This document shows, one piece after another, positions 26,821 to 38,795 of a stretch of 40,349 nucleotides of DNA. Each line of letters begins with the position of its first letter. The stretch's first letter is position 1. The DNA is from a virus. Where the stretch lies: positions 1 through 40,349 of IMG/VR virus record IMGVR_UViG_3300037493_002359, one strand, 5' to 3'. Below the pieces are notes generated by a model that saw only the letters and a list, made by a program, of their open reading frames with translations, did not search any database and had not been told where the DNA came from. The position numbers and the translations under genes are program-made.

Positions 26821-26969
26821 GAAATCCTGTAAGCGGTGAGAGCAGCGCCAGAGGTTGCTTCAGCCTCATATTGCGTTTGACCGGGCAGACGTGGCAATCC
26901 GCCGCCCCGGAACTTTGGGAACGCTTGGAATCTGGCGTGGCTGGGCGTGGCGGGGCAGGGCCAGGCTAG
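26817..26969 (+). CDS. Possible 50-residue ORF running into repeat array 1
   Basis: ATG 26817 overlaps the upstream stop (ATGA), giving MRNPVSGESSARGCFSLILR and then GLY/ARG/ALA residues dictated by the GGCNN array, ending at TAG inside the array. The coupling is suggestive, but the last 12 residues are low complexity. A leader-peptide role is possible. Weak support. Confidence 0.25.
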   Translation: MRNPVSGESSARGCFSLILRLTGQTWQSAAPELWERLESGVAGRGGAGPG

Positions 26970-27035
26970 GCTTGGCAAGGCAAGGCGTGGCATGGAATAT
27001 GGCGGGGCAAGGCGCGGCTCGGCGCGGCACGGAAC
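26934..27035 (+). repeat. GGCNN period-5 array 1
   Basis: GGC stands at every fifth base from 26934 to 26989 (12 units), then GGAATAT gives a two-base phase break, and six more units follow from 27001 to 27026, with a closing GGAAC at 27031 and then TTGGGCTGG. The NN dinucleotides are different in nearly every unit, so it is not a simple satellite. It lies in an intergenic position and is followed by an A/C-rich leader. Similar design at 28275. Confidence 0.9.
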
Positions 27036-27110
27036 TTGGGCTGGCGTCACAACCAGCAAACACAAAACACACACGGAACAAGGAACACAACACAACACAA
27101 CACTAGACAC

Positions 27111-27779
27111 ATGTACCAGAAAAACTACGCAGTCACACTAACAGGAGCAACTGACCTCCTAATGCACAGAGACAACATCGACTTCGGGGCCAAGACCCGC
27201 GCATGGCAGAAAGATCCTGCCAACAAAAAGATGTCGGTGGCCGGAGACGACCGCTCGCCAGCGTGGAGCTGGTTATCGTGTCTCTACACAGCCGGCGGTC
27301 AGGTAGTCATCGACAGCGACAACATCATGTCGATGCTGCGCGACGGCGGAAAGAAGTGCTCGGCGCCTACTGGCCGGGGCTCAATGAAAGCGCAGACGCA
27401 ATCAGGCATCATCTGCAATGAGATCGGATGGCCGATCACCCTGGCCGATGGGCGCAACATCGACAGCAACGCGCTACTTGCGATGGTGAAGGAGAGCGAG
27501 TTTGAAGAGCACGAGAAGGCGGCGCAGGAAGCGGGATTCGTTCTGTTCGTGAAGCGTGCGCGGGTCGGCACATCCAAACACGTCCGCGTTCGTCCGCGCT
27601 TCTCGAACTGGTCGGCCAGCGGAACGCTCACGGTGGTCGATCCAAGTATCACACTTGAGATGCTCCAGCACATCCTGACCTTCGCGGGCTGCTTTTGCGG
27701 TGTGGGCGATTGGCGACCATCGTCACCGACACCCGGTCAATTCGGTCGGTTCACTGCAACCATCACAAAGCTCCCTTAA
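27111..27779 (+). CDS. Hypothetical protein, conserved GDWRPSSP type
   Basis: A 222-residue protein from ATG 27111. The frame is open upstream to 27036 but only through the array and leader, so the later ATG after CACTAGACAC is used. Motifs: YAVTLTGATDLLMHRDNIDF, SWLSCLYTAGGQVVIDSDN, LFVKRARVGTSKHVRVRPRF, and a closing GDWRPSSPTPGQFGRFTATI. The last piece recalls a glycine-rich loop, vaguely RAMP-like. I do not recognise a characterised family. The A/C-rich leader upstream (27061-27110) has no SD. Confidence 0.65.
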   Translation: MYQKNYAVTLTGATDLLMHRDNIDFGAKTRAWQKDPANKKMSVAGDDRSPAWSWLSCLYTAGGQVVIDSDNIMSMLRDGGKKCSAPTGRGSMKAQTQSGIICNEIGWPITLADGRNIDSNALLAMVKESEFEEHEKAAQEAGFVLFVKRARVGTSKHVRVRPRFSNWSASGTLTVVDPSITLEMLQHILTFAGCFCGVGDWRPSSPTPGQFGRFTATITKLP

Positions 27780-28219
27780 TGATTACGACCATGACACTCG
27801 TCACAGGCATTCCCACCAAGATCGACGTCAACAAGCTGATGGAGGCAATCAAGCCACTAGAGGAGGGAGACCTATTCTCTTATGACACAATCGCGCAGAC
27901 CATCGGTGTTGACCGCACCAGCAAACGCTTCCAGTCGGTCATGGGTGCATTCCGCAACCGGCTGATGCGCGAGCGCAACATCTACCTCGTCTGCGAACCA
28001 CGCGAAGGATACCGCTTAGCCGATCCGGATCGACGGATTACGGTGGCCGCCAACAAGGTCACCTATGGTAAGCGCATGATTTTCCGGGCAAGCAGTCTGG
28101 CAATGACAACGGACACCAACCGCCTGACCGGAGACAACCGCAAGCTGCAACAGCATCTGGCAACGCTACCAGTGCGCATGAAGCTGGCCGCATTGACCGC
28201 ACCAAAGGAGATCGACTAA
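27779..28219 (+). CDS. Possible winged-helix DNA-binding protein
   Basis: A 146-residue protein; ATG 27779 overlaps the previous stop (TAATG). Residues about 25-75 (FSYDTIAQTIGVDRTSKRF, MGAFRNRLMRERNIYLVCEP) look like a winged HTH with a wing (EGYRLADPDRR). The basic C-terminus (RKLQQHLATLPVRMKLAA) may bind nucleic acid. A regulatory role is likely but not proven. The longer frame from 27695 lies inside the upstream gene. Confidence 0.55.
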   Translation: MITTMTLVTGIPTKIDVNKLMEAIKPLEEGDLFSYDTIAQTIGVDRTSKRFQSVMGAFRNRLMRERNIYLVCEPREGYRLADPDRRITVAANKVTYGKRMIFRASSLAMTTDTNRLTGDNRKLQQHLATLPVRMKLAALTAPKEID

Positions 28220-28274
28220 GATGACAAACCCGGAGGCATTATTCGGAGTGGTGCCTTTCGGGCGCGTGGATTTT

Positions 28275-28397
28275 GGCTGGGCGGGGCGCGGCGCGGCATG
28301 GCTCGGCCGGGCTAGGCACGAGCGAGGCAAGGAATATGGCACGGCCCGGCGCGGCGTGGCGTGGCAAGGCAGGGCCCGTCGAGGCAGGGCATGGAAC
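28275..28397 (+). repeat. GGCNN period-5 array 2
   Basis: GGC stands every five bases from 28275 to 28315 (nine units); after a GAG variant and a one-base slip comes GGC 28326, then GGAATAT gives the same phase break as in array 1. Eight units run from 28338 to 28373, followed by a GTC variant, two more units, and a closing GGAAC at 28393 with AAGGGCGGG. The internal and terminal landmarks are the same as in array 1, while the NN positions differ. Confidence 0.9.
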
Positions 28398-28446
28398 AAG
28401 GGCGGGCACATCCGCAAGAACAACAAACCAACAACAACACAACCGT

Positions 28447-31957: not shown

Positions 31958-32560
31958 ATGAACGACGAACATCCTTTTACCGCATTCCCGAAGATGGCCC
32001 GTTTGCAACGCGAGGTCATCGTCACCGAGAAAATAGATGGCACCAACGCACAGATACACATCACCGACGACGGTAAAATGCTGTTTGGTAGCCGCACCCG
32101 TTGGATCACCCCCGGGGACGATAATTTTGGATTCGCACGGTGGGCCACCGACCACACGGACGAGCTGATGCAACTCGGGCCGGGCCGCCATTTTGGCGAG
32201 TGGTGGGGCCGTGGCATCCAGCGCAACTACGGACTCAATTATCGCAAGTTCAGCTTGTTCAACGTCATCCGTTGGTGCCCGCATGGGGAAGAACCAAAGC
32301 AGATCCCGACCGCTGACCCACGCAACGTCAAATTGCAGGACATGCTCCCCTCCTGCTGCCATTTGGTCCCGATCCTTTGGCAGGGGTTGTTCACCTCAGT
32401 GATTCCCACGGTGCACCTTTGGGAGCTAAGCCAGACAGGCAGTAAAGCCGCACCCGGTTTTGCTCGCCCTGAAGGCATTGTGCTGTTCCACGTCGCCGGG
32501 AACGTCGGATTCAAAATGACCTTGGACAATGACGGAGTACCTAAATCCACTTTGAAATGA
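31958..32560 (+). CDS. RNA ligase family nucleotidyltransferase
   Basis: A 200-residue enzyme with ligase motifs in order: motif I EKIDGTNAQIH (Lys25 as adenylation site), FGSRTR, motif III FGEWWGRGIQRNY (79-91), motif IV RPEGIVLF (170-177) and motif V GFKMT (Lys186). This is the core of the Rnl2-like RNA ligase family that seals nicks in RNA, often repairing host-cleaved tRNA. The C-terminal domain is short. A DNA-ligase role is less likely. An A-rich leader (AAACTAAAACAAAC) precedes the ATG. Confidence 0.85.
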   Translation: MNDEHPFTAFPKMARLQREVIVTEKIDGTNAQIHITDDGKMLFGSRTRWITPGDDNFGFARWATDHTDELMQLGPGRHFGEWWGRGIQRNYGLNYRKFSLFNVIRWCPHGEEPKQIPTADPRNVKLQDMLPSCCHLVPILWQGLFTSVIPTVHLWELSQTGSKAAPGFARPEGIVLFHVAGNVGFKMTLDNDGVPKSTLK

Positions 32561-36272: not shown

Positions 36273-38795
36273 ATGATCACTATCACCACCACCGAAAACA
36301 CGCACCCGCAGGAAGCCGAAGTAGCAGGTACAGCAGAGGCGCAAATTACATGGTTCCCGGAAGCCACAGCGGTCACGCCTGTCCGCACTGGATCGCTTCA
36401 AGAATACATCGACCAATGCAGGAGCGGCACCTACCAAGACATCGTGCTAAAGATCCGGCAGGCAGCCGCGGCAAACGAGACAGCCAAAGTGGGAATGCTC
36501 AAAAGGCGCCTGCCCGCGGCAACCTTGTCTTGCAGTATGGTCAGCCGCTCCAAGAATGCGCCAATACGGGCGCGCACTCACAGCGGGTGGCTTCAGTGCG
36601 ACTTTGATGGCAAGGAGAACCTAGGCCTAGTGCAGAGCGATATACGGGCACGCCTGCAGGATGACCCACACGTGGGCGCCGTGTTCGTCGGACCGTCTGG
36701 CGTTGGCATTAAATGCGCCGTTCGTATCGACGGCACGCGGCACCTTGCCAGCTTCAACAGCGCCAAGGATTACTTCGCAAAGGAGTACGGCCTGCAGCTT
36801 GATAAAGCCTGCAAGGACATCGAGCGGTTGTGCTTCCTGTCGTTTGACCCGGAGGCATGGTGCAGACAAGGCGGAACCAAGGTGCTGCCGGTGACGGAGC
36901 TGGCCGAGAAGGAAGTAGTGCGCGCCAAGCCGGTCAATGCAGATCTGACACCGTTTGCAGCAGAACAGCACGACATGAGCATCGCTGACGTTCGGGAGAT
37001 TCTGACGTATATACCGAAAAGGCCGGATTACGACACTTGGCTGCGAGTTGCATCTGGAGTGTTTAGCGTGCTGCCCCTGGGTGCGGCGTGCGCGGTGTTA
37101 AACGAGTGGGCGCCTGAAGAGCATCCGGGCGAGTACGAGAAAAAGCACAAGAACCGCCTGAAGAACGTCACGATTCGGACTGTGATTCACTATGCTCAGC
37201 AGCAAGGATTTGACGCACGAGCAGCAGCCAAGCGCAAGACGTGGATGGGGCGCCTACTTTTCGGTGACACGGGTGCTTCACACTCGGATCTGCTAGAGGG
37301 AGATCCGTCGCCACCTGATCTGACCGAGGAGGAAAAGCAGATCGTCGGTGAGGACGGCGGCATGGACCTAGAAAGTGTCGTCAAACTTTACACGCGGGAG
37401 CAGGTCGGAGACGCGACAGTATTCTTGAGGAGTGGCTGCAATGACTTTGCATACGATCCGTTGTCGCAGGTATGGCGGAAGTACGCCGAGAATACCGGAC
37501 TCTGGACGAAAGACAGCGTGGGCAGCACCATTCACGATATGTCGGCCCGCATCATCTCAGCATATGATGTGCTGATCAGCACCGCGGAGGCCGAGGCCAA
37601 AGCGGCCAAGAACAAGGAAGTAACTAAGGCCAACATGGCCGAGATCCAGCAGATGCGCCAACGCTGCGGAAGCCTGCAAAAGGCGCCGTACATGGCCAAC
37701 GTGCTGGGATTAGCTCAAAAGTTTGATCGCTTGTGCAGGCCGGCTACCGACTACGATCAGCACAGGCACTTGCTTGGACTGAAAAATGGCGTGTGTGTGG
37801 ATTTTCGAGAGAAGAAGGTGCGGCCAACTGAACGGGCGGATCTGCTCAGCGTGGCGTGTCCGGTCGTTTACGATGCGGACGCAACGTGTCCATATTTCGA
37901 TGCGTTTATTCAGCGGGCATTTGGCGGAGACGCGGACATGATCGACTATTGGTGGCGAATTGTCGGGTATAGCCTCACCGGATTCGTCGATCATGATGCG
38001 CTCTTTTTCTGTTATGGGCTGGGCGCAAATGGCAAGAGTACGGGATTGATGGCGCTTCGTTATTTGCTGGGTGATCAGCTAAGCACTATGGTGGATGTGA
38101 ACACGCTTCTGGGCACTAGCGGCGATGCAACGATGGACTACAAAAAAGCCATGCTTGAAGGGAAGCGGCTGATCATTACCGACGAGCTGCCAGACAACAA
38201 AAAGATCAACGAGAGCATGGTCAAAGGACTGCTGGGCGGTGAGGACATTGTGGCTCGCAGGCCGTATGAGCGGCCTTATACGTTTTCGCCGACGCACAAG
38301 ATCTGGATGGTCGGCAATCACAAGCCGAAGATTTCAGGCGTTGATCACGGCATTTGGCGCCGCATTCACCTCATTCCTTGGGAAGTGACGATTCCCGTGG
38401 CCGAGCGCAAACCGCGGTCGGAGATCTGGGACATCTTCAAACAGGAGCTGCCTGGCATGTTGCTACGTGCGATTGATGGGTATTTGGATTTTGAGGAACG
38501 CGGTGGTTTGTGCCCGCCCGCGATGGTCAAAGCTGCAACCGAGGAATACCGCATGGAAGAGGACAGCCTGCAGCAGTTTATGAGCGAGCGAGTGATCGAA
38601 ATGCCTGGTGCTCACTTTCCGATGCGTGACCTGTTTACCGAATATAAGAACTGGTGCGCCGCCTCCGGCGAGACATCGGTTGTGGATACTGCAAATAAGC
38701 TCACTAGAGCACTCAAACAAGCGCCATACAGCATTTCTATTGGTTATGACAGTTCAAAGGTAAATGTCATGCAAAACCGCATCTTGAGGAGCTGA
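36273..38795 (+). CDS. Primase-helicase (BT4734-like, PriCT-2, SF3)
   Basis: An 840-residue replication protein. Residues about 95-170 (GWLQCDFDGKEN, VGAVFVGPSGVGIKCAV) match the BT4734/VirE N-terminal type primase-polymerase-like domain. Residues about 232-315 (MSIADVREILTYIPKRPDYD, TWLRVASGVFSVL) match PriCT-2. The C-terminus is an SF3 D5-like helicase: Walker A GLGANGKST (582-590), Walker B LIITDELPD and motif C KIWMVGNHKP. It would prime and unwind at the origin just downstream. No polymerase domain. Confidence 0.9.
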   Translation: MITITTTENTHPQEAEVAGTAEAQITWFPEATAVTPVRTGSLQEYIDQCRSGTYQDIVLKIRQAAAANETAKVGMLKRRLPAATLSCSMVSRSKNAPIRARTHSGWLQCDFDGKENLGLVQSDIRARLQDDPHVGAVFVGPSGVGIKCAVRIDGTRHLASFNSAKDYFAKEYGLQLDKACKDIERLCFLSFDPEAWCRQGGTKVLPVTELAEKEVVRAKPVNADLTPFAAEQHDMSIADVREILTYIPKRPDYDTWLRVASGVFSVLPLGAACAVLNEWAPEEHPGEYEKKHKNRLKNVTIRTVIHYAQQQGFDARAAAKRKTWMGRLLFGDTGASHSDLLEGDPSPPDLTEEEKQIVGEDGGMDLESVVKLYTREQVGDATVFLRSGCNDFAYDPLSQVWRKYAENTGLWTKDSVGSTIHDMSARIISAYDVLISTAEAEAKAAKNKEVTKANMAEIQQMRQRCGSLQKAPYMANVLGLAQKFDRLCRPATDYDQHRHLLGLKNGVCVDFREKKVRPTERADLLSVACPVVYDADATCPYFDAFIQRAFGGDADMIDYWWRIVGYSLTGFVDHDALFFCYGLGANGKSTGLMALRYLLGDQLSTMVDVNTLLGTSGDATMDYKKAMLEGKRLIITDELPDNKKINESMVKGLLGGEDIVARRPYERPYTFSPTHKIWMVGNHKPKISGVDHGIWRRIHLIPWEVTIPVAERKPRSEIWDIFKQELPGMLLRAIDGYLDFEERGGLCPPAMVKAATEEYRMEEDSLQQFMSERVIEMPGAHFPMRDLFTEYKNWCAASGETSVVDTANKLTRALKQAPYSISIGYDSSKVNVMQNRILRS

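Follow-up and report, generated by a model that had tools for sequence, protein, structure and literature searches.

Two arrays in which GGC returns at every fifth base, with two variable letters (NN) between successive triplets, flank a pair of genes in an IMG/VR virus record (IMGVR_UViG_3300037493_002359), which raises the question of what kind of element would hold the spacing of a triplet constant and leave the letters between free. We analyzed the whole 40,349-nt stretch, referred to here as the window, and consider it about 95% probable that the locus is a phage-borne VIPR (Viral Interference Programmable Repeat) system close to type II. This identification is based on the homology of two proteins (Vipr and Vap), conservation of the GGC lattice combined with turnover of the NN letters, conserved array tails, and genetic linkage. 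According to the account in a preprint of April 2026 (PMC13142463), VIPR is an RNA-guided DNA-binding system that consists of a RAMP protein together with an accessory protein and guide RNAs in which GGY alternates with NN; the NN letters pair with DNA, with one target base skipped between pairs. The experiments it reports for Escherichia phage SUSP1 cover RNA expression, RNP formation, the skip rule, and repression. That description supersedes the original prediction that no described element has this exact form; literature searches for GGCNN or pentanucleotide phage repeats found nothing relevant by those descriptions.

Architecture of the two arrays

A scan of the window with the pattern (GGCNN)3GGC, allowing up to 1 mismatch, gave 30 matches, compared with 0.37 expected from dinucleotide shuffles (shuffle maximum, 2 matches). 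The two period-5 arrays and the phase break they share are therefore real and nonrandom. Every one of the 28 matches within the arrays falls on the + strand, which is also the sense strand for the flanking genes, and the GGC run lies outside genes; open reading frames overlapping it are mechanical. Array 1, vipr, vap, and array 2 follow one another in that order, and all features given below are on the + strand.

Array 1 (26934-27030) follows a lead-in at 26908-26933 (CGGAACTTTGGGAACGCTTGGAATCT), has GGAATCTGGC as its head, and consists of 12 GGCNN units at 26934-26993 (NN = GT TG GT GG AG CA TA TT AA AA GT AT), a GGAATAT separator at 26994-27000, and 6 units at 27001-27030 (NN = GG AA GC TC GC AC). 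Its 3′ tail (27031-27057; GGAACTTGGGCTGGCGTCACAACCAGC) starts with GGAACTTGGGCTGG. Array 2 (28275-28392) follows a lead-in at 28225-28274 ending in GGGCGCGTGGATTTT and comprises two 11-unit segments, counting the variant units GAGC and GTC, with GGAATAT between them at 28331-28337. The first segment (28275-28330) contains 9 GGCNN units (TG GG GC GC AT TC CG TA AC) followed by GAGCGA and GGCAA. In the second (28338-28392; AC CC GC GT GT AA AG CC GA AG AT), GTC replaces GGC in one of the 11 units, the one carrying GA. The tail of array 2 (28393-28415; GGAACAAGGGCGGGCACATCCGC) starts with GGAACAAGGGCGG. Segments of 12, 6, 11, and 11 units (variants counted) are thus found on both sides of vipr and vap, and the 6-unit segment is below the range of 9 to 16 tandem units given for VIPR arrays (PMC13142463).

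As first described, both arrays close with GGAAC..GGGC and lead into an A/C-rich leader and an ATG; we also found a small hairpin in each tail. In the array 1 tail, GCTGG (27040-27044) faces CCAGC (27053-27057), with an RNA folding energy of -7.9 kcal/mol (z = -1.26 versus shuffles), and in the array 2 tail, GCGG (28402-28405) faces CCGC (28412-28415), at -6.6 kcal/mol (z = -1.93). These energies are just 1.3 to 1.9 standard deviations below shuffles for the two arrays, and one T-A pair of the array 1 hairpin is missing from both strands of the array 2 hairpin. The hairpins are only suggestive of conserved secondary structure. An Rfam search gave no match.

Proteins encoded between the arrays

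The vipr gene (27111-27779), between arrays 1 and 2, encodes a 222-aa RAMP protein of phrog_4652, as indicated by profile searches, BLASTP, and AlphaFold/Foldseek. Searched against PDB sequences, the phrog_4652 family profile had a single strong match, SUSP1 Vipr (36pp; E = 4e-44), which the window protein also matched in a single-sequence search (E = 4e-10) and in BLASTP (26% identity over 214 columns; E = 3e-18). An AlphaFold model of the protein (pLDDT 94.6) returned top PDB folds in Foldseek that were all CRISPR RAMPs (probability up to 1.00); 36pp was absent from these matches, in a fold library that ends on 8 April 2026. Judged by alignment and predicted fold, the product is a Vipr homologue: a single small RAMP-fold protein with a G-loop, carrying the conserved C-terminal motif G.GD.RP...GRF. 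Pfam and NCBIfam contained no family for Vipr or Vap, and PHROGs lists phrog_4652 without known function.

The modeled fold resembles CRISPR RAMPs such as type VII Cas7 and Csm3, whereas sequence homology is to Vipr only. Class 1 CRISPR-Cas was rejected as an assignment: only the GGC triplets repeat, and vipr is followed by a vap1-like gene. No CRISPR repeats or other cas genes were found adjoining the arrays, and the genes tested around the arrays had no match to cas families in Pfam, NCBIfam, or PHROGs. CRISPR itself has been proposed to descend from VIPR as its RNA-guided ancestor. An annealing protein (RecT/Redbeta, ~5 nt per subunit) was also considered, on the basis of one array neighbor that matched RecT and of Cy-LDV1 arrays near bet/exo genes, and was dropped once the profile matched SUSP1 Vipr.

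Next to vipr lies vap (27779-28219; 146 aa), whose product is homologous to that of the SUSP1 gene after vipr (ALH47068.1; E = 3e-11; both phrog_5926), the latter gene being taken as vap1 from its place. The Vap model looks winged-helix-like, with weak PDB matches. Since this gene is homologous to its SUSP1 counterpart and the order array-vipr-vap-array is as in SUSP1, a type II phage in the preprint, we call the locus type II-like; published types are also defined by Vipr phylogeny, so that an assignment made from vap1 homology and order places the locus close to type II. At the gene level, the type II layout of vap1 next to vipr, with vrRNAs on both sides, is present.

The likeness to SUSP1 extends to a phage-borne locus with homologous Vipr and Vap, GGY/NN pentamer arrays on either side of vipr and vap, and a 3′ hairpin tail. 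In SUSP1, one vrRNA is upstream and three are downstream of vipr and vap (PMC13142463). The two loci differ in that the lattice is mostly GGT in SUSP1 and GGC in the window, and in that SUSP1 is described with a pseudoknot tail and one tail per vrRNA, whereas the window has a simple hairpin and GGAWTNT-separated segments that share a terminal tail. With Vipr just 26% identical to that of SUSP1, the window locus extends VIPR by a divergent type II-like system.

By analogy with SUSP1, we infer that the window arrays act as the SUSP1 arrays do. Each array would be transcribed to yield guide RNAs (vrRNAs), and the RNA would be lined by Vipr subunits at a spacing of five bases, each gripping a constant GGC. 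In every unit, the two variable positions would pair with target DNA, with a 1-nt skip between pairs. The complex would repress transcription of its target by binding double-stranded DNA that belongs to a competing phage, a prophage, or a satellite, assisted by Vap as a small putative DNA-binding protein. GGAATAT would separate guides having one structured tail in common.

Probable guide turnover among sibling phages

Three IMG/VR phages (L251, L252, and L253) encode Vipr proteins 99% identical to that of the window, and we refer to these and the window phage as the four siblings. Across the four, 209 of 216 GGC lattice letters are identical (97%), compared with 51 of 144 NN letters (35%; 26% expected by chance). 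L251 and L253 have a guide in common, and omitting their array 2 pair gives an NN identity of 40/132 (30%). The proposal that selection acts on GGC spacing while the NN letters are free is well supported by this comparison. The flanks are conserved as well: tail letters are identical at 213/216 positions for array 1 (98.6%) and 210/216 for array 2 (97.2%), the array 2 lead-in is 96% identical, and the array 1 lead-in has a mean identity of 88.5%, against 35% for the NN letters it adjoins. The vipr coding sequence is 92% identical at the DNA level, with differences almost all at third codon positions. Array 2 contains 2, 5, 5, and 6 segments across the four siblings, with summed segment lengths of 118, 300, 270, and 351 nt (window, L251, L252, and L253, respectively), and length differences between sibling arrays are not divisible by 3. 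A conserved scaffold with a replaced code is the pattern expected of guides, and the retention of the lattice with replacement of NN is, as far as sequence comparison can tell, the signature of guides under turnover. The four close phages amount to a natural experiment in which guides are almost wholly different while scaffold, tails, and proteins are fixed, and such sibling sets make guide acquisition or replacement without a Cas1-like gene testable.

The same comparison bears on whether the arrays are a transcription or translation leader, i.e., an untranslated spacer bound by Vipr/Vap that autoregulates the vipr operon and is not a guide. One array immediately precedes vipr and the other a downstream gene, and the leaders are conserved, as such a role would have it. 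Autoregulation, however, predicts conserved NN letters, yet these are replaced, and sibling array 2 differs in segment number (2, 5, 5, and 6) with letters almost wholly different. We regard this explanation as very improbable and retain the reading of the arrays as guides.

The motif GGAATATGGC, originally read as a phase break landmark, is shared by both arrays as a separator, but it is local to this phage clade and not general. GGAWTWTGGC occurs three times in the window, at both separators and at the array 2 head, and GGAWTNT, with a few variants, marks the majority of segment borders and array heads in the four phages. Because of this recurrence, GGAATATGGC is better interpreted as punctuation, presumably a separator between guide segments. 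Other phages have a 4-nt unit, GGCA, instead (A in 125 of 133 four-base units among the matches listed in an IMG/VR scan), and successive GGCAGGY marks are 5n + 4 apart, with n mostly 7 to 14. GGCA seems to have the same punctuating role as GGAWTNT. Many loci have this 4-nt unit every 7 to 14 pentamers (e.g., L099, L055, and L249).

We suggest tentatively, at somewhat below even odds, that the arrays are polyguide RNAs, in which a short separator (GGAWTNT in the window clade, GGCA in many other phages) joins tail-less guides ahead of one terminal tail, and that the complete set of guides turns over from one phage to another where Vipr is 99% identical. If so, both the polyguide layout and the rate of guide turnover would go beyond the description of type II VIPR in the main text of the preprint (PMC13142463); the layout may be what its fig. 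S18 calls "staggered arrays."

Searches for targets with the 1-nt skip rule found nothing above chance. Exact skip-1 scans of IMG/VR with three window guides gave 2, 0, and 0 matches, and the two failed on extension; no skip-rule target was found in the window genome or the sibling phages. Among 388 genomes of the phylum of a Lentisphaerae MAG (L165), searched with up to 3 mismatches, one 3-mismatch match was found, about the estimated chance level. A guide common to two siblings had 5 matches, with ~9 expected by chance (estimate), in differing coding contexts. In a local test over 1.2 Mb, the mean best match was 0.804 for skip 1 versus 0.796 to 0.799 for other skips, with no separation.

Arrays and Vipr across genomes

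A pattern search of other genomes, proposed as a check on the original prediction, recovered similar arrays. At least 120 stretches in IMG/VR matched (GGCNN)5GGC, and those listed were mostly long arrays with free NN letters, usually on the sense strand, where they follow closely on a stop codon and precede the next start. Their 2,891 five-base units use all 16 NN dinucleotides, and neighboring units are nearly independent. Broken units among the listed matches are mostly GGT, as expected for a GGY lattice. The pattern provides a simple DNA-level finder for VIPR loci. phrog_4652 dominates the neighbors of the listed arrays (25/83 downstream and 29/71 upstream), and Vipr is present at 79 of 110 NN-diverse viral loci listed, counted within the fetched stretch, some of the remaining loci being short or cut.

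Starting from the protein, we listed 24 loci by their Vipr gene, and each of the 24 had a sense-strand GGY/NN array; out of 12 units, these arrays scored 7 to 12 on one or both sides and at least 8 on the better side, compared with at most 4 antisense and at most 6 in shuffles. These loci comprise the window, its siblings, Mycobacterium, Gordonia, Escherichia, and Salmonella phages, and IMG/VR relatives; the window, Quico, Cy-LDV1, L267, and L272 (the last two from contigs of the array scan) were first noticed via arrays and the rest via protein searches. Like the window, Cheoctovirus (Mycobacterium phages Quico, Saal, Brocalys, and Donkeykong) and Gordonia phages (Pipp and ODay) carry sense-strand NN-diverse GGC/GGT arrays beside a Vipr homologue. 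They differ in their 4-nt GGCA punctuation, where the window clade has GGAWTNT, and in Quico the gene after vipr is phrog_15946, not phrog_5926.

These distributions also bear on the idea that the arrays are a structural element, with GG at every fifth base of the sense strand forming two-layer G-quadruplexes or R-loops that regulate the downstream gene, an arrangement in keeping with the intergenic position of the array at most loci, past one stop codon and ahead of the following gene. Such an element predicts neither a strict C/T at position 3 (broken units mostly GGT; SUSP1 GGT), nor free and rapidly replaced NN letters, nor linkage to a RAMP gene, and its probability is accordingly very low. 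The same lattice is mostly GGT in SUSP1 and Mushroom, which argues for a GGY/NN RNA code; neither the G-quadruplex or R-loop function first proposed nor the suggested alternation of helix faces is supported.

A microsatellite or decayed coding repeat might be suspected, as bacterial chromosomes often contain perfect GGCNN microsatellites and the pattern there is mainly of this ordinary kind. The bacterial examples, however, have 1 to 3 NN types and no Vipr nearby, whereas the window arrays are NN diverse. On bacterial contigs, Vipr accompanied 5 of 16 NN-diverse arrays versus 0 of 104 low-diversity GGCNN microsatellites (P = 2e-5). Sibling length differences that are not multiples of 3, and a lattice kept while the letters between change, refute this origin, whose likelihood is negligible, and leave VIPR guide arrays as the preferred reading.

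Several further observations were made in these searches. Perfect GGCNN microsatellites (L129-L248), common in actinobacterial and proteobacterial chromosomes, are false positives in VIPR pattern searches. NN-diverse GGC arrays with no phrog_4652 anywhere in the record were found in L024 (105 kb), L031 (56 kb), L115 (48 kb), L103 (36 kb), and L015 (35 kb); these have either a Vipr of a divergent type or orphan, guide-only vrRNAs. An Alphaproteobacteria MAG contig (L201) has two Vipr genes ~2.2 kb apart. Vipr-array loci in cultured actinophages are annotated as hypothetical proteins (Quico, L249; Donkeykong, L280; Brocalys, L281; Saal, L283; Pipp, L278; ODay, L279), and the Donkeykong gp048 coding sequence (36870-37256), called across the array, is probably spurious. 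By terminase, the nearest isolated relative of the window phage is Verrucomicrobia phage P8625 (24% identity). The window also encodes an RNA ligase homologue at 31958-32557 (phrog_548; E = 8e-30).
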